Source of the DNA: Actinomycetes bacterium
GTDB lineage: Bacteria; Actinomycetota; Acidimicrobiia; Acidimicrobiales; SZUA-35
Reading direction: 5' to 3'
Length of the DNA: 42,444 nucleotides
NCBI GenBank assembly: GCA_024280015.1
Contig: JAJRQY010000007.1
Span: forward strand, 1-42,444
Shown piece after piece: positions 15,315 through 21,853 of the stretch (position 1 is the first letter of the stretch; each line of letters starts with the position of its first letter). The position numbers were made by a program, and so were the translations under genes. Under the pieces are notes generated by a model. It worked only from the letters and a program-made list of their open reading frames with translations. It had not been told where the DNA came from and ran no database searches.

Positions 15315-16502
15315 CTAATTGGATGAAGCAACGCGGTCGAGGGCCTGGGCGAAATCGGCAACGATGTCCGCTGTTTCCTCTAGTCCGCAGGAGATGCGAA
15401 TGGTTCCGGGTGAGATGAACGAGTCGGCAAGTTGAGCCTGGTCAAGACCGGCATGGGTTGTCGAAGCCGGGTGACAGATCAATGTTTCGGGCCCACCAAG
15501 CGAGGGGGCATGAACCGCCAGATTCAACCGTTGCACCAGTGCCTCACCAGCTGGATAGCCGCCAGCAAGCTCGAAGCTCAAGATTCCCCCCGCTGACTTC
15601 AGCTGACGCTGAGCCAGCTCATATTGAGGGTGCGAAGCCAAGCCCGGATAGCGGACCTCGCCAACGGCTGGATGGCCTTCCAGTGATTCGGCCAGCGCAT
15701 GAGCAGTTGCCGTCTGTTGACGCAGACGGACCGGCAGGGTTCGGATTCCACGCAAGCCGCTGAGTGCGTCTGCTGGTGACGCACATGCACCCTGGAGCGA
15801 GGCAAAGCCTGAGATCCAGTCAACCAGGTCTGCATTTCCGGCAACAACTCCGAGTGTTGCGTCGTTGTGTCCGGCAATGGCTTTGGTTGCCGAGTGGATC
15901 ACCAGATCAACGCCATAGCTCAGCGGCTGTTGGCCCAGTGGAGTGGCGAAGGTGGCATCGACCACGGTGATCGGACCAACGATTGAGCCCAACTCATCTA
16001 GATCCACCAGATCCAGACGAGGGTTAGCTGGTGTTTCGGCAATAACCAGCACCGTCTTGCCGGGAACGACCGCTGCCTCCAAGGCCCCGGGCTTGGTCCC
16101 GTCGGCAAACGTCACATCGATCCCAAACCGCGGGCAAAAGCCTTCCAGAAGCTGACGGGTTCCTCCATAGAGCTGCTTGCTGGCCACAATATGTGCACCC
16201 TGGGTGCACAGACCAAACACAACGGAGGAGATCGCACCCATGCCCGAGGAGAAAGCTCGGGCCGACTCTGCTCCCTCCAATTCGGCAATGGCTTCTTCGA
16301 AGGCGGCAACCGTTGGATTGCCATAGCGCGAGTAGAAATGGGTCGGCCTCCTTTGGGTTGCGAACTCCTTGGCCTGGGCAAGATCTGCGGGCTCAAAGGT
16401 CGTCGTAGCCCACAACGTAGGTGCCAACGCACCATCGGCCGCACTCCGTCCAGTGGTGATGGCCTGCGTGGCCTGGCTCCAGGCTTGGAATTTAGTTGCC
16501 AT
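15315..16502 (-). CDS. trans-sulfuration PLP enzyme (cystathionine gamma-synthase / Met gamma-lyase family)
   Basis: A PLP enzyme of sulfur amino-acid metabolism in the cytosol. Family motifs: YSRYGNPT near the N terminus, the FSSGMGAIS loop, KQLYGGT, VDATFATP (Asp contacting the PLP nitrogen, about 182), and HSATKAIAGHND with the Schiff-base Lys at about 207. The 395-residue length fits. Cystathionine gamma-synthase, methionine gamma-lyase and O-acetylhomoserine sulfhydrylase share these motifs and cannot be separated here. The start is ATG 16502: an upstream in-frame TTG (16514) is part of the Shine-Dalgarno sequence GGAGG, which lies five bases before this ATG. The leader carries a SAM-type riboswitch, so expression should fall when SAM is abundant. 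This suggests a methionine-synthesis rather than a degradation role. Confidence 0.88.
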   Translation of the reverse strand: MATKFQAWSQATQAITTGRSAADGALAPTLWATTTFEPADLAQAKEFATQRRPTHFYSRYGNPTVAAFEEAIAELEGAESARAFSSGMGAISSVVFGLCTQGAHIVASKQLYGGTRQLLEGFCPRFGIDVTFADGTKPGALEAAVVPGKTVLVIAETPANPRLDLVDLDELGSIVGPITVVDATFATPLGQQPLSYGVDLVIHSATKAIAGHNDATLGVVAGNADLVDWISGFASLQGACASPADALSGLRGIRTLPVRLRQQTATAHALAESLEGHPAVGEVRYPGLASHPQYELAQRQLKSAGGILSFELAGGYPAGEALVQRLNLAVHAPSLGGPETLICHPASTTHAGLDQAQLADSFISPGTIRISCGLEETADIVADFAQALDRVASSN

Positions 16503-16507
16503 GATGT

Positions 16508-16522
16508 CCTCCAAATTGGAGG
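16508..16522 (-). promoter_or_regulatory. Shine-Dalgarno-sequestering hairpin (riboswitch platform)
   Basis: On the minus strand CCTCC-AATTT-GGAGG forms a short perfect stem in which the arm GGAGG is the ribosome site of the PLP-enzyme gene. The complementary CCTCC would mask it, a translational off-switch placed between the aptamer and the start codon. Confidence 0.6.
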
Positions 16523-16859: not shown

Positions 16860-17951
16860 ATGACTCAATTGATCACCAGCAGTAGCCAAATCTATGCCAA
16901 CTGGCTCACCGCAGTTATGCGATCACACGGCACGTTGGATGAATCCGGCTCCATCAGCGGGGCTGATGTCGTCTCATTTGGCGATGCTGCTGGGCTGATG
17001 GGGTCACTCTTTCGGGCCACCTTGACCTATGCCGAAGGCTCGACCGGGCCAAACACCGTCATCGTCAAGCTTCCTATGGATGACCCGGCCCAGCGCGGGG
17101 TTGCCGACATGCTCCTTTTCTTCCAACGGGAATGCACGTTCTACGCCGACCGGGCTGCGACCGCTCCGTATAACACGGCCGCCATCTACGGCTCTGCCAT
17201 CGATACCGAGACATCAGATTTCGTTCTGATCATGGAAGACCTCGGCCATCTGACTCAGATTGACCAGGTTGCTGGCGCGTCGGTTGAACAGATTGACTCA
17301 GCAGTCACCGCCATCGCCAAACAGCACGCGCAATATTGGGAGCATGACGACCTTGAGGATTTGTCCAATCCTTTCATGCGAGTCAACTCCGATCTCTACC
17401 ACGCAGCCTTGCCTGCGGTGTTCGCCGGCGGCTGGGACAACGCAAAGATCCACGGGGCGGGAGTCCTTACTGATGACATCATCTCCTTCGGCGACCGCTG
17501 GGGCGAGCATGTTCCTTACATGCTCAGCCAGCTGGCCGGACCGGCAACCCTGATCCATGGTGACTTCCGTGGTGACAACCTGATGCTGGACGAAAACGGA
17601 GCACTCAGCATCATCGACTTCCAGATCACCGGCGTCGGGTCAGGGATCTACGACATTGGCTATTTCATGGCCCAATCGGTTGAGTCCGGTCTCCGCAAGG
17701 CCAACGATGAACGAGTTGTTCGACTCTACTGCGACACCCTCAAGGCTGAAGGAGTAGACATCGATTTCGACTCGATGATGGCCAAGTACCGAATGGGGTT
17801 CGCGTTTTTCACCATCTACGCCGTCACCTCCTTCCAGGCTTGGGATGCTTTTGACGGACGCCAACACGAACTCATGCTTGGGATGCTGAGCCGTTCGGTT
17901 GCCGCCATGAATGACAACGAATCCCTCAGCCTGCTCCCGGCATTGGGTTAG
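16860..17951 (+). CDS. EcKL/APH-like small-molecule kinase
   Basis: A 363-residue protein of the protein-kinase-like fold used by aminoglycoside, choline and ecdysteroid-kinase-like (EcKL) phosphotransferases. An ATP-binding Lys sits in VIVKLP (Lys70), FVLIMEDL is the hinge, the catalytic loop is HGDFRGDN (233-240) with its Asp base, and DFQ (253-255) replaces DFG/DFE, binding Mg2+. GIYDIGYFM is a typical following helix. FFQRECTFY resembles EcKL proteins, common in actinobacteria with unknown substrates (alcohols, steroids or acyl compounds). It is followed after only two bases by a carotenoid-cleavage-type oxygenase, suggesting both act on the same lipid or terpenoid compound. ATG start with GAGG upstream. 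Confidence 0.8.
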   Translation: MTQLITSSSQIYANWLTAVMRSHGTLDESGSISGADVVSFGDAAGLMGSLFRATLTYAEGSTGPNTVIVKLPMDDPAQRGVADMLLFFQRECTFYADRAATAPYNTAAIYGSAIDTETSDFVLIMEDLGHLTQIDQVAGASVEQIDSAVTAIAKQHAQYWEHDDLEDLSNPFMRVNSDLYHAALPAVFAGGWDNAKIHGAGVLTDDIISFGDRWGEHVPYMLSQLAGPATLIHGDFRGDNLMLDENGALSIIDFQITGVGSGIYDIGYFMAQSVESGLRKANDERVVRLYCDTLKAEGVDIDFDSMMAKYRMGFAFFTIYAVTSFQAWDAFDGRQHELMLGMLSRSVAAMNDNESLSLLPALG

Positions 17952-17953
17952 GC

Positions 17954-19363
17954 ATGTCCAGCACCACTGACGCCACTACTCAAGATGCAACATCCCATGA
18001 GAACATCTACCTCCAGGGTGCTTGTGCCCCGGTCAGTGAAGAGGTGACCGCCTTCGACCTGCCGGTGATTGGGAAAATCCCCGAAGAACTCGAAGGGCGA
18101 TGGCTACGCAACGGCCCTAACCCGATCGGCGAGGTTGATGACCCGGCAAAGCATCATTGGTTCGTCGGCGATGGCATGGTGCATGGCCTACGGCTGCGGG
18201 GAGGCAAGGCGGAGTGGTACCGAAACCGTTGGGTCCGTGGCGATCATGTCGCCGATGCACTCGGTGAGAAACGGCCGTCTGGGCCTGACTTCGGGGATCG
18301 CTCCAGCTTGGGACCGAACACCAACGTTGCTGGCTTTGCTGGCCGTACTTGGGCCATGGTGGAAGCTGGCGGCACACCGGTCGAAATGACCTATGAGCTG
18401 CACACTATTGGTCGAAACAACTTCGACGGGACGTTACCTGGCCCGTTTACGGCTCATCCAAAGTACGACGCCAAGACAAAGGAGCTACACGCCGTAGCGT
18501 ACGCCTGGCCCGATCTAGTGGACAGCCTGCAGTACGTCGTAGTCGGTTCCGATGCCAAGGTCACCAAGACGGTCAGCATTCCGGTGCCCGACATGCCAAT
18601 GGTGCATGACATGTCCCTTACCGACCGCTACGCGGTCATTTTTGACCTCGGGGTTACGGTCAGCTTCGACCGCATGGGAGAGGGCTACAACTTCCCCTTC
18701 GCCTGGAATCCAGACCATGAGTGTCGAGTTGGGTTACTACCTCGCGACGGTGAGGCAAGCGACATCATCTGGTGCGCCGTCGACCCTTGCATTGTCTTTC
18801 ATCCCTTGAATGCCTATGACACCGCAGATGGCAAGGTCATCATCGATGTCTGTCGATATGACACCATCTTCGTCAACGATCGCAACGGCCCATTCCGAGA
18901 CACAGCACCAACCCTTGACCGCTGGGTCATCGACCCGGCTGCTCGAAGGGTTAGCGAGACCCGAATCGATGATCGGCCGCATGAGTTCCCGCGCCACAAC
19001 CCGGCCTATGGGCTGACCGAGCACCAATTCGGTTATACCGCCGAGCTTGATTTGAAGAGTCATGCGCTGCACGCCAAGACCTACAAAACAGACTTCAAGA
19101 CGGGCCTAGTCACCGCGCATGACTACGGTGCAGGCCGAGGCGGTGCCGAACCCATCTTTGTCGCCAAGGAGAACTCACAGGCCGAAGATGACGGCTGGCT
19201 CATGACCCTGGTCTATGACGGAAACAGCAAGACTTCTGAGCTTCATATTCTTGAAGCTGCCGACATGTCTGCGGCTCCAGTAGCTCAGATACAACTCCCA
19301 CAGCGTGTACCCATTGGTTTCCACGGCAATTGGGTTGCCGATAGCTCAGTCGCCCCCGACTAG
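17954..19363 (+). CDS. carotenoid cleavage / lignostilbene-type dioxygenase
   Basis: A non-haem iron oxygenase of the RPE65/carotenoid cleavage family that splits C=C bonds of carotenoids, apocarotenoids or stilbenes. All four iron-binding His are present in family context: FTAHPK (168), VHDMSLT (218), FHPLNAY (283) and GFHGNW (457). The NGPNP motif (53-57), WFVGDGMVH and FAWNPDH segments also match. Length is 469 residues, usual for bacterial members. No signal peptide. The start lies two bases after the kinase stop, so the pair is one operon. Together with the CrtI-like flavoprotein at 12243 this hints at carotenoid or terpenoid processing, but no crtB or crtE is in the window. Confidence 0.93.
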   Translation: MSSTTDATTQDATSHENIYLQGACAPVSEEVTAFDLPVIGKIPEELEGRWLRNGPNPIGEVDDPAKHHWFVGDGMVHGLRLRGGKAEWYRNRWVRGDHVADALGEKRPSGPDFGDRSSLGPNTNVAGFAGRTWAMVEAGGTPVEMTYELHTIGRNNFDGTLPGPFTAHPKYDAKTKELHAVAYAWPDLVDSLQYVVVGSDAKVTKTVSIPVPDMPMVHDMSLTDRYAVIFDLGVTVSFDRMGEGYNFPFAWNPDHECRVGLLPRDGEASDIIWCAVDPCIVFHPLNAYDTADGKVIIDVCRYDTIFVNDRNGPFRDTAPTLDRWVIDPAARRVSETRIDDRPHEFPRHNPAYGLTEHQFGYTAELDLKSHALHAKTYKTDFKTGLVTAHDYGAGRGGAEPIFVAKENSQAEDDGWLMTLVYDGNSKTSELHILEAADMSAAPVAQIQLPQRVPIGFHGNWVADSSVAPD

Positions 19364-19517: not shown

Positions 19518-20900
19518 ATGATCGGACTGCCCATGAAGCGCCTTCTCGTACTCGGAGCCGGTACAGCCGGAACAATGGCTGCCAACCGCCTACATAAGGT
19601 GCTCAAGAACGAATGGCAGATTACCGTCGTCGACCTCGATACCGAGCACATCTACCAGCCGGGTCTGCTTTTCATCCCCTTCGGCACCTTGGACCGCAAG
19701 GGCGTGATCAAACCCCGCTTCAAGCAGTTCGTCAAGGGAATCAACACCGTCCTCGGCAAGATCGACCTGGTCAAACCAGAACTCAAGCAGGTCTTGTTGA
19801 TGGATGGCACGGTCCTTCCCTATGACCAGCTCATCATCGCCACCGGAACGACGGTCGCGCCGGAAGAAACCACGCGGATTTCTGGTGACTCCGATGCCAG
19901 CGAGGTGCATGAGTTCTACACCCTGAAGGGCGCCGAGGCTCTGGCGGAGACCATGAAGTCTTGGAGGGGCGGCAAACTCGTCGTTCACGTCACCGAAATG
20001 CCAATCAAGTGCCCAATCGCCCCCTTGGAATTCGTCTTCCTGGCCGATGCCTTCTTCAAGGACCACGGAGTCCGCGACCAGGTCGAACTCACCTATGTCA
20101 CTCCCCTTCCCGGGGCATTCACCAAGCCTGTTGCCGCCAAGTACCTGGGCGACATGTTGGACGACCGATCAATCGCGGTTGAGACCGACTTCTACACCGA
20201 GCACATCGACACCACTGGATCCGGTAGCGGCAAGCTTGTTTCCTTCGACGAGCGAGTCATCGACTTTGACCTCCTGGTCACCGTGCCAATCAATATGGGC
20301 TCCAAATACATCGAACGTTCTGGGCTTGGCGACGAGCTTCGCCATGTCCCCGTTGACAAGCACACACTGCTGGCCAACGACTACGACAACATCTTTGTTC
20401 TCGGTGATGCCTCCAATATCCCGACCTCAAAGGCGGGCTCAGTAGCGCACTTCGCCGTCGAAATCTTCGTCGAAAACTTCTTGCAACACATCGCAGGAAA
20501 ACCGATGACCCACAGCTTTGACGGACACGCCAATTGCTTCATCGAAACCGGCAACCAGAAGGCAACCCTGCTCGACTTCAACTACACAACCGAGCCCCTG
20601 CCCGGCACCTTCCCCGCAAGCAAGGTCGGACCTCTCTCCTTGCTCACCGAATCACGAATGAACCATCTCGGGAAACTGGCGTTTCGTTGGGCCTATTGGT
20701 ATCTGCTTCTGCCCGGCCGAAATATCTTCCTGCCCTCAGCAATGTCCATGACCGGAAAGACTCCGGCCGACCAGCTTGACCTTCGGCTGCCAACGACTGA
20801 CTCAGGCGACCCAGACCCAGGCGACTCAGACCCAGGTGACTCAGGCGACTCTGACTCCAGCAAGTCTGACACCCCCGACATTCCAATCCCCAGTTTCTAG
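19518..20900 (+). CDS. sulfide:quinone oxidoreductase-like flavoprotein
   Basis: An FAD-dependent disulfide oxidoreductase of the SQR/flavocytochrome c type. LLVLGAGTAGTMAANRL binds FAD; IYQPGLLFIPFG and IIATGTT follow as in SQRs. Two Cys fit the redox pair: Cys165 in PIKCPIAP and Cys340 in ANCFIETG; a third Cys of some SQRs is absent. IFVLGDASNIPTSKAGS is the second FAD motif. A hydrophobic or amphipathic end (about 383-408) could dock to the membrane for quinone. After about residue 428 comes an acidic Asp/Ser/Pro tail with repeated GDSDP. ATG 19518 is used; the ATG at 19533 gives the more usual MKRLLVLG start. It precedes DsrC- and DsrE2-like genes, supporting a sulfur role. Confidence 0.85.
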   Translation: MIGLPMKRLLVLGAGTAGTMAANRLHKVLKNEWQITVVDLDTEHIYQPGLLFIPFGTLDRKGVIKPRFKQFVKGINTVLGKIDLVKPELKQVLLMDGTVLPYDQLIIATGTTVAPEETTRISGDSDASEVHEFYTLKGAEALAETMKSWRGGKLVVHVTEMPIKCPIAPLEFVFLADAFFKDHGVRDQVELTYVTPLPGAFTKPVAAKYLGDMLDDRSIAVETDFYTEHIDTTGSGSGKLVSFDERVIDFDLLVTVPINMGSKYIERSGLGDELRHVPVDKHTLLANDYDNIFVLGDASNIPTSKAGSVAHFAVEIFVENFLQHIAGKPMTHSFDGHANCFIETGNQKATLLDFNYTTEPLPGTFPASKVGPLSLLTESRMNHLGKLAFRWAYWYLLLPGRNIFLPSAMSMTGKTPADQLDLRLPTTDSGDPDPGDSDPGDSGDSDSSKSDTPDIPIPSF

Positions 20901-20934
20901 ACCCGACCACCAAACGAACAAATAGGAAAACAGC

Positions 20935-21249
20935 ATGCCAACAATCACCATTGCCTCTTCATCTGTCGAGGTAAACGACGAAGGTTTCATGACCGTCTAT
21001 GACGAATGGAACGAGGAAATCGGAACCGCTCTTGCTGCCAATATTGGATTGGAGCTCACCGATGGGCACTGGGAAGTCATCCGCTTTCTCCGAGATGACT
21101 TTGCCAGCCAGGGAGAAACCGCAACCCTGCGGCGAGTCTCCAACACTGGTGGAATGCCGACAAAGAGCCTCTTTAAGCTCTTTCCAAAGAAGCCAGCCAA
21201 GAAGATGGCTTACATCGCTGGGCTGCCAAAGCCTCACGGCTGCGTCTAG
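20935..21249 (+). CDS. DsrC/TusE-family sulfur carrier-like protein, single Cys
   Basis: A 104-residue protein with the DsrC/TusE/RspA signature: VEVNDEGFM near the start, WN, ELTDGHWEVIRFLRD with typical helix pattern, and the end IAGLPKPHGCV. The C-terminal arm ends in the penultimate Cys103 (CysA), which carries sulfur or forms disulfides. The second arm Cys of true dissimilatory DsrC, 11 residues before CysA, is Ala here, so this is the TusE-like or regulatory-type variant that cannot form the trisulfide bridge of DsrC. ATG with an AGGAAAAC-type ribosome site, 34 bases after the SQR-like gene. It likely accepts persulfide sulfur made by the SQR-like or DsrE2-like partner; this is an inference. 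No dsrAB nearby. Confidence 0.88.
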   Translation: MPTITIASSSVEVNDEGFMTVYDEWNEEIGTALAANIGLELTDGHWEVIRFLRDDFASQGETATLRRVSNTGGMPTKSLFKLFPKKPAKKMAYIAGLPKPHGCV

Positions 21250-21340
21250 CAGCGGCAATCCAAAACGGTTCGGCCATACGAGCCGCAACACAGCCTGCTC
21301 TCCCAACCCTCCAACTATTCCCGAACGAAAGTGATCTGAG

Positions 21341-21853
21341 ATGACTATGACCGATCTCCAAGAAGGACTCATCCCCAACTTCGACGACGAAGAAACCGAT
21401 CGCAAGATCTGCTTCATCTGCTCCAAGGGAAACCTCGACATGGTGTATCCGGCCCTCGTGATGGCCAATGCTGCCCTGGGTGAAGGAATTGAAACCCACA
21501 TCTTCTTCACCTTCTGGGGTATGGACATCATCCACGACACGACGGTTGATCATCTCAAGTTCACGATCCTTGGCAATACGGCGTCACACATGCCACAGGC
21601 CCTTGGCGGTATGCCAGGCATGACGGCGGTGGCCACTCACAAGATGAAGAAGCAGATGGAGGATCTTGAGGTTCCCGGTGTGCGCGAGTTCATCGAACTC
21701 ATCAGCGATGCGGGTGGCAAGTTGTGGGCTTGCAAGATGTCAGCCGACATGATGCATCTGACCGAAGACGACTTGCTTGAGCATGTCGATGGAATCATCA
21801 CCGCAACCGAGTTCATCGAACTCAGTGATGGTGCACAGGTGATCTTCACCTGA
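21341..21853 (+). CDS. DsrE2-like (DsrE/DsrF/DrsH) sulfurtransferase family protein
   Basis: A 170-residue protein of the DsrE/F/H-like group related to DsrE2. KICFICSKGNLDMVYPAL (Cys24, Cys27), HIFFTFWGMD, the Met/Gly-rich MPQALGGMPGM stretch, and LWACKMSADMM with the likely sulfur-carrying Cys131. The Met/Gly stretch and the hydrophobic FFTFWGM segment suggest membrane contact, as described for DsrE2. Such proteins carry persulfide sulfur between donors and TusA or DsrC. Downstream of SQR-like and DsrC-like genes it completes a short relay. The ATG lies 91 bases after the DsrC-like stop; ATG at 21347 is an alternative. Its end lies seven bases from the stop of a convergent gene. Confidence 0.88.
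   Translation: MTMTDLQEGLIPNFDDEETDRKICFICSKGNLDMVYPALVMANAALGEGIETHIFFTFWGMDIIHDTTVDHLKFTILGNTASHMPQALGGMPGMTAVATHKMKKQMEDLEVPGVREFIELISDAGGKLWACKMSADMMHLTEDDLLEHVDGIITATEFIELSDGAQVIFT

Follow-up and report, generated by a model that had tools for sequence, protein, structure and literature searches.

A sulfide:quinone reductase (SQR) gene, a one-cysteine DsrC gene and a DsrE2-like gene lie next to one another in a 42,444-nucleotide stretch of an Acidimicrobiales genome (lineage SZUA-35; GenBank assembly GCA_024280015.1, contig JAJRQY010000007.1, positions 1 to 42,444; hereafter the window), and this SQR-DsrC-DsrE2 unit is a real, widespread variant of known sulfur-relay modules. We consider it probable that the unit consists of a quinone-reducing type III SQR equipped with protein sulfur carriers of its own, DsrE2 and DsrC, in place of TusA. 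The observations that bear on this reading are the gene content and gene order of the unit, the co-occurrence of its genes across genomes, the conservation of its cysteines, a swap of carrier genes beside related SQRs, and the lack of a dsrA match in the class and named genomes searched.

Three consecutive plus-strand open reading frames (ORFs; 19518-20900, 20935-21249 and 21341-21853), separated by 34 and 91 bases, encode the unit, and the initial annotation of the window correctly described them as SQR-like, one-Cys DsrC-like and DsrE2-like. A profile scan places the first in the type III SQR family NF049943, above its cut-off of 525 bits. Judging from the alignment of its homologues, this protein probably starts at its second Met (19533) and not at 19518; with that start, the Cys165 and Cys340 of the initial annotation are renumbered Cys160 and Cys335. 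By eye, the FAD fold of the SQR begins at its first residues, and the three translations contain two Cys in the SQR, one in the DsrC-like protein (the penultimate Cys103) and three in the DsrE2-like protein (Cys24, Cys27 and Cys131). A predicted model of the DsrE2-like protein finds its best folds in 3pnx, 2qs7 and 3mc3, with DsrEFH (2hy5) lower, and the protein thus has both the DsrE fold and the conserved Cys that go with this family. The window SQR holds no selenocysteine, both sites being Cys codons with no UGA. A selenocysteine codon was also rejected for the subfamily at large, as no internal TGA occurs in the above-cut-off matches from 247 class and 301 Chloroflexota genomes; one below-cut-off match (Chloroflexota genome G538) does contain a TGA.

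The order of the three genes is conserved far beyond the window. A search of 247 genomes of the class Acidimicrobiia with NF049943 (E up to 1e-100) matched in 66, of which 62 lie over the cut-off. Sixty neighbourhoods from these 66 genomes were compared with 80 named loci, with the window and genome G230 besides, using profiles that derive from alignments A1, A2 and A3 and from four DUF1641 proteins; the named loci are the best 80 of 583 relatives in a species-genome scan, so that close relatives are favoured and distant ones undersampled. SQR, DsrC and DsrE2 are consecutive on one strand in 132 of the 140 loci, some of which occur in both sets. Seven of the eight incomplete loci end at a contig end no more than 800 bases from the SQR; in the eighth, L090, the SQR is distant and accompanied by TusA. 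Counted by distinct SQR, a set that leaves out matches below 500 bits and identical SQRs, the order is present in 126 of 132 loci, the other six being cut by contig ends. By record title, complete loci occur in Actinomycetota, Chloroflexota (Anaerolineae), Trueperaceae, Bacteroidota, Rhodothermales, Calditrichota and Ignavibacteriales, and an Opitutales locus ends after DsrC; many of these records are metagenome bins, whose taxon titles can be wrong. The initial annotation had named loss of gene order in relatives as grounds for refuting the unit, and the 126 of 132 distinct loci leave it unrefuted. Pairwise distances of SQR, DsrC and DsrE2 are also correlated (r 0.69-0.78, where permutation gave at most 0.18; 119 of the 126 loci, uncorrected for species phylogeny). 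A search for plasmid copies of the unit gave no match at 1e-80.

SQR and DsrC also travel together at the level of whole genomes. DsrC (PF04358) is present in 66 of the 247 class genomes, 64 of them common with the 66 SQR genomes (Fisher p 3e-54, with genomes taken as independent), so that both co-occurrence and order sustain the earlier grouping of the genes as a unit. The two class genomes with DsrC only (G050 and G052) carry SQR pieces beside DsrC; of the two with SQR only, one (G160) is interrupted by a contig end, and the other (G048) is of the TusA type. Among 301 sampled Chloroflexota genomes, an above-cut-off SQR occurs in 16 and DsrC in 23, and all 16 are among the 23.

The Chloroflexota further reveal a change of partner. 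Their SQR scores are bimodal: one group lies at 533-657 bits, the other at 338-380 bits, and the gap between them is empty, the figure of 338 reflecting the E limit of the search. Of the 16 above-cut-off SQRs, the 15 whose loci were fetched all have DsrC next to them, as does the remaining one (L137); DsrE2 is present in 14 of the 15, the other locus (L309) ending there. Below-cut-off SQRs occur in 27 genomes, of which 20 were fetched together and one (G465) later; TusA adjoins in 19 of the 20, the remaining stretch (L317) ending there, and DsrC in 0 of 20. Seven Chloroflexota genomes have DsrC and no above-cut-off SQR, and five of these encode a two-Cys DsrC near dsrAB (four) or dsrP (one); the DsrC genes read in this phylum leave out the second matches of G376 and G454 and the third of G384.

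The cysteines are not all equally conserved. SQR Cys160 and Cys335 are kept in 126 of 126 distinct complete loci, part of this sample having been chosen with a scan pattern, [FY]DGHANCF, that itself selects for Cys335; alignment A1, from a profile search free of that selection, retains both in 18 of 18. By position, though not by alignment, the pair matches Cys159 and Cys339, described in the excerpts of PMC13047784 as the canonical type III SQR pair of cable bacteria. In DsrC, the penultimate Cys (CysA) is kept in 134 of 134 rows, duplicates included. The CysB position, 11 residues before CysA, is Ala in 100 rows, as in the window, Ser in 33, Thr in one and Cys in none. In DsrE2, Cys131 is present in all 121 rows with a residue there (five gaps). 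The initial annotation had listed all six residues as key Cys; the SQR pair, DsrC Cys103 and DsrE2 Cys131 are indeed invariant, whereas DsrE2 Cys24 and Cys27 are kept in only 33 and 86 of 126 loci. As a separate observation, DsrC-family genes occur on viral contigs (the best 80 of 162), where CysB is retained in 28 of the 92 profile matches that extend to the C-terminus and replaced by Ala or Thr in all others.

Neither dsrA nor TusA was found in the host genome, given as 96.6% complete. The dsrA search gave no match in any of the 247 class genomes at 1e-20, host included, or in 49 named genomes (from 50 of the 80 named loci); the same model matches dsrA near two-Cys DsrC in Chloroflexota by hmmscan, which supports these negatives. 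TusA (PF01206) has no match in the host at 1e-5, and a control search matches in 11 of 14 genomes. The host encodes a single DrsE_2 protein, and its sole DsrC match is that of the window. It has three CCG-pair proteins, none within an sHdr-like cluster in 3 kb stretches whose neighbours were named by eye, so an sHdr sink for the sulfur was rejected within those stretches. Of the sHdr, TusA and dsr genes that the initial annotation had proposed to look for in related genomes, neither TusA, dsrA nor an sHdr-like set was found in this genome. A second SQR lies on contig C12 (locus L194, 496-6884) in a one-strand cluster with an Fe-S/NrfD fusion protein, a 945-residue molybdopterin oxidoreductase and a PF04143 sulfur-transporter-like protein. 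We rejected it as a second copy of the unit: it scores 232 bits, below the cut-off, has its nearest match in the human enzyme (6mp5, 1.8e-99) and has no second DsrC. The host may therefore oxidize sulfur by another route too, and calling it a non-sulfur-oxidizer, as was done at first, is unsafe.

Based on these results, we propose the following sequence of events. Sulfide would attack the Cys160/Cys335 site beside the FAD of the SQR, and two electrons would pass from FAD to the quinone pool. The sulfane sulfur would leave the SQR for the DsrE2-like protein, to be bound at Cys131, and would then reach the one-Cys DsrC at its penultimate Cys103; this DsrC would fill the place held by TusA beside neighbouring SQRs. 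The substrate of the SQR, the direction of sulfur transfer and the formation of a complex are what we infer here. Lacking CysB, and with no DsrAB, this DsrC could not cycle through an intramolecular disulfide or trisulfide as dissimilatory DsrC does, and would act as a plain persulfide carrier. Excerpts of PMC3397948 report that sulfur passes in vitro from DsrE-Cys78 to the penultimate DsrC-Cys111, with DsrC-Cys100 (CysB) dispensable.

A fourth gene, encoding a DUF1641 protein of about 210-260 residues, stands between SQR and DsrC in 55 of the 126 loci, and two such proteins scanned match PF07849, a family that includes subunits of solved structure with a part in quinone or membrane coupling. 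The DUF1641 profile matches ForE1 of formate dehydrogenase (1.9e-5), and ForE is needed by its formate dehydrogenase for menaquinone reduction (excerpts of PMC8808070); by this analogy, DUF1641, where present, is the probable link between the SQR and the membrane and quinone. Its predicted model is weak (pTM 0.32). Elsewhere in the host, on contig C94 (locus L193, 2873-5708), a DUF1641 protein matches the Huc membrane subunit (2.9e-16) and adjoins, by eye, hypA-like, hypB-like and hydrogenase small-subunit-like genes.

SQR C-terminal tails are longer in proteins without DUF1641 (median 8, n=74) than with it (median 5, n=65; p 1e-9, uncorrected for relatedness). The pattern [VILPAM]P.F, defined after inspecting the tails and counted with related loci not down-weighted, ends 5 of 76 DUF1641-less SQRs, including that of the window, where shuffled tails would give 0.02; none of the 69 SQRs accompanied by DUF1641 has it, and the difference is not significant (Fisher p 0.06). 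Of 140 DsrE2 proteins, 23 of them with tails not cleanly parsed, 87 carry the pattern in their N-terminal tail against 4.4 expected. From these sequences, it is possible that the motif serves as a common docking peptide. More tentatively still, and as a proposal that we doubt in its full form, the unit may represent a widespread, unnamed complex in which SQR discharges sulfur onto enzyme-held carriers rather than low-molecular thiols, with DsrC and DsrE2 replacing TusA, DUF1641 joining the enzyme to quinone at the 55 loci that encode it, and the hydrophobic-P-x-F peptide docking the parts on one shared site.

Several points weigh against an SQR with dedicated carriers, beginning with the limits given above for the named-locus sample, the Fisher test, the distance correlation and the tail motif. 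Among the class genomes, 38 of the 66 with SQR have TusA against 16 of the 181 without, a correlation of TusA with SQR within the class, and 32 of the 49 named genomes have it too, so DsrC is not a genome-wide replacement for it. The description of the unit as lacking dsrAB and TusA hence applies to the host as searched and not to the group. Near the SQR itself, TusA appears in two of the 140 class and named loci (L090 and L167), and it is the SQR neighbour in class genome G048; in L167 (4510-8457, Propionicimonas), both carrier types lie side by side, as the SQR, DsrC and DsrE2 genes are immediately preceded by TusA and another DsrE2 on the opposite strand. The below-cut-off SQR genome G465 has no TusA in its stretch, but has dsrAB and a two-Cys DsrC. 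Chloroflexota genomes G416 and G559 encode a DsrC without CysB and have no SQR match at 1e-100, and G384 has one further DsrC likewise without CysB. The window DsrE2-like protein misses the DsrE2 equivalog NF047629 (91 of 210 bits), and no downstream sulfur oxidase was identified. DUF1641 is not in the operon in 71 of 126 loci, window included. The whole-chain match of DUF1641 to YjlC, the membrane coupling protein of NDH-2, is weak (0.003-0.006, with apolipoprotein A-I next at 0.012), and its best single stretch gives 0.29-0.46. The link to YjlD, the flavoprotein in that coupling complex, is weak as well: the SQR aligns with it over residues 7-114 only and scores better with other flavoproteins. 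Finally, A. vinosum DsrEFH and DsrC took no sulfur from thiosulfate or glutathione persulfide (excerpts of PMC3397948), so that direct transfer from SQR to a carrier needs proof.

Three other explanations deserve weight. The SQR might scavenge sulfide for biosynthesis, and DsrE2 and DsrC would then supply the sulfur for thiolation or for a cofactor, much as TusE serves tRNA in E. coli. In that species, TusE and MnmA form the end of the Tus relay (excerpts of PMC3397948), and a host with no TusA match and a single DrsE_2 protein could use the carrier pair for such a pathway; yet the window DsrC reaches only 62.6 of the 191 bits of the TusE equivalog NF008562, a unit confined to 66 of 247 genomes is a poor fit to a near-universal tRNA modification, and a quinone-linked SQR would be an odd opening step. 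We therefore regard biosynthetic delivery as unlikely. Ranked just behind it, and likewise improbable, is a flavoprotein that acts on another thiol or persulfide, for example by re-oxidizing or reducing DsrC-bound sulfur with the quinone pool. No characterized protein of this SQR subfamily came to our notice, the NCBI family name refers to a selenoprotein subtype (SQR_III_seleno), and a nearly strict co-inheritance with DsrC would suit such a role. Against it stand the two retained Cys, which match the cable bacterial pair by position.

Ordinary sulfide detoxification onto low-molecular thiols, with DsrC and DsrE2 as sulfane-sulfur buffers or sensors, seems to us the least probable of the three. 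The second, human-type SQR of the host would suit it, as would the regulator-like ORFs directly upstream of SQR in 29 of 80 named loci, with HTH and PocR sensory domains in one example; a gene order kept across phyla argues otherwise, and the replacement of DsrC by TusA beside sister SQRs points to a shared carrier role. A quinone-reducing SQR with DsrE2 and DsrC as carriers consequently remains our preferred reading. The sulfide-oxidation and sulfur-delivery unit of the initial annotation survives in its conserved, linked genes and loses Cys24, Cys27 and the supposed non-sulfur-oxidizing host.

Table 1. Features of the SQR-DsrC-DsrE2 unit in the window.
Feature	Coordinates	Strand	Basis
Type III sulfide:quinone reductase (SQR), probable start	19533..20900	+	NF049943, 582.7 bits; ORF opens at 19518, homologues align from ATG 19533 (alignment A1)
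SQR Cys160 codon (earlier Cys165), redox pair	20010..20012	+	Invariant in A1 (18/18) and in 126/126
SQR Cys335 codon (earlier Cys340), redox pair	20535..20537	+	Invariant in A1 (18/18) and in 126/126
SQR C-terminal tail, acidic, low-complexity, ending IPIPSF	20760..20897	+	ORF listing and tail analysis
One-Cys DsrC/TusE-family protein, 104 aa	20935..21249	+	PF04358, 5.5e-31; TIGR03342, 77.1 bits vs 53.5
DsrC CysA (Cys103), penultimate; Ala at CysB position	21241..21243	+	CysA 134/134; CysB never Cys
DsrE2-like sulfurtransferase, 170 aa	21341..21853	+	PF13686 (DrsE_2), 8.8e-32; model pLDDT 87.8, DsrE-family folds best matches
IPNF motif in low-confidence N-terminal tail of DsrE2-like protein, resembling the SQR tail end	21371..21382	+	Model and tail analysis
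DsrE2-like Cys131 codon, sole invariant Cys of this protein	21731..21733	+	Aligns with Cys of 2qs7, 3pnx and 3mc3

A promoter and terminator scan found no site on the coding strand, and the window has no regulator-like gene directly upstream of SQR; the example scanned elsewhere (L098, 2663-3487) combines HTH_17 with a PocR sensory domain. Near the unit, 10 of the 80 named loci hold a DUF302 gene (median position downstream; example scanned, L098 6384-6875). Upstream of the window unit (16860-19363) lie an EcKL/APH-like kinase gene and a carotenoid-cleavage-dioxygenase-like gene, which we rejected as conserved neighbours, since they occur in 0 of 60 class neighbourhoods. About 3 kb upstream of SQR, on the minus strand (15315-16514), is a Cys/Met metabolism PLP enzyme whose best model is methionine gamma-lyase, under the cut-off (351.6 of 549.7 bits).

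To our knowledge, the role of DsrC/TusE-family proteins in dsrAB-free bacteria, outside the Tus relay, is not settled. The nearly strict linkage of DsrC to one SQR subfamily in several phyla, with TusA beside sister SQRs, suggests a testable role as acceptor of SQR sulfur. If this is true, the neighbouring carrier gene would tell which relay a metagenomic SQR feeds, and a DUF1641-coupled SQR would be predicted; if the enzyme-held carrier complex is also true, many DsrC homologues of dsrAB-free bacteria would gain a function. According to the excerpts of PMC3397948 (Stockdreher and others), CysB is almost always Ala, Ser or Thr where DsrAB is missing; a one-Cys DsrC without dsrAB is thus already known in general, and it is the SQR partner that we did not find described there. 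No description of the SQR-DsrC-DsrE2 unit was found in the literature searched, a search mostly outside subscription journals and preprints, and the excerpts of PMC13047784, PMC13293266, PMC9312934, PMC8808070, PMC12976888, PMC12345210, PMC10504309, PMC4378227 and PMC3397948 contain none.

The unit compares with known systems as follows. The window SQR resembles other type III SQRs of NF049943 in its score over the cut-off, both redox Cys and the FAD fold. It differs in its Cys codons without UGA, in the acidic tail at its C-terminus and in the absence of a DUF1641 gene beside it. In the loci that do encode DUF1641, that protein resembles the coupling subunits ForE and, weakly, YjlC by profile, and the Huc subunit is matched by the separate DUF1641 protein of the host; a complex of DUF1641 with SQR is a conjecture, and the window operon has no such gene. 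The window DsrC shares CysA with dissimilatory two-Cys DsrC, from which it is separated by Ala at CysB and a genome with no dsrA match; from TusE it differs in the missed cut-off and in a genome with no TusA match. The DsrE2-TusA-SQR loci of Chloroflexota and G048 likewise place a related SQR beside sulfur carriers, often with DsrE2-like pieces, and invite comparison with the dsrE3A-dsrE2B-tusA cluster of Metallosphaera cuprina (PMC4175335). They differ from the window in having TusA for DsrC (19 of 20 fetched) and in SQRs that score below the cut-off, NF049943 nevertheless being the best of four NCBIfam models scanned. The DsrEFH-DsrC relay of Allochromatium vinosum, as described in the excerpts of PMC3397948, likewise pairs a DsrE-fold donor Cys with a penultimate DsrC acceptor Cys. 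In the window unit, one DsrE2-like protein stands for DsrEFH, CysB is missing, no dsrAB was found, and the source of the sulfur is apparently the neighbouring SQR.

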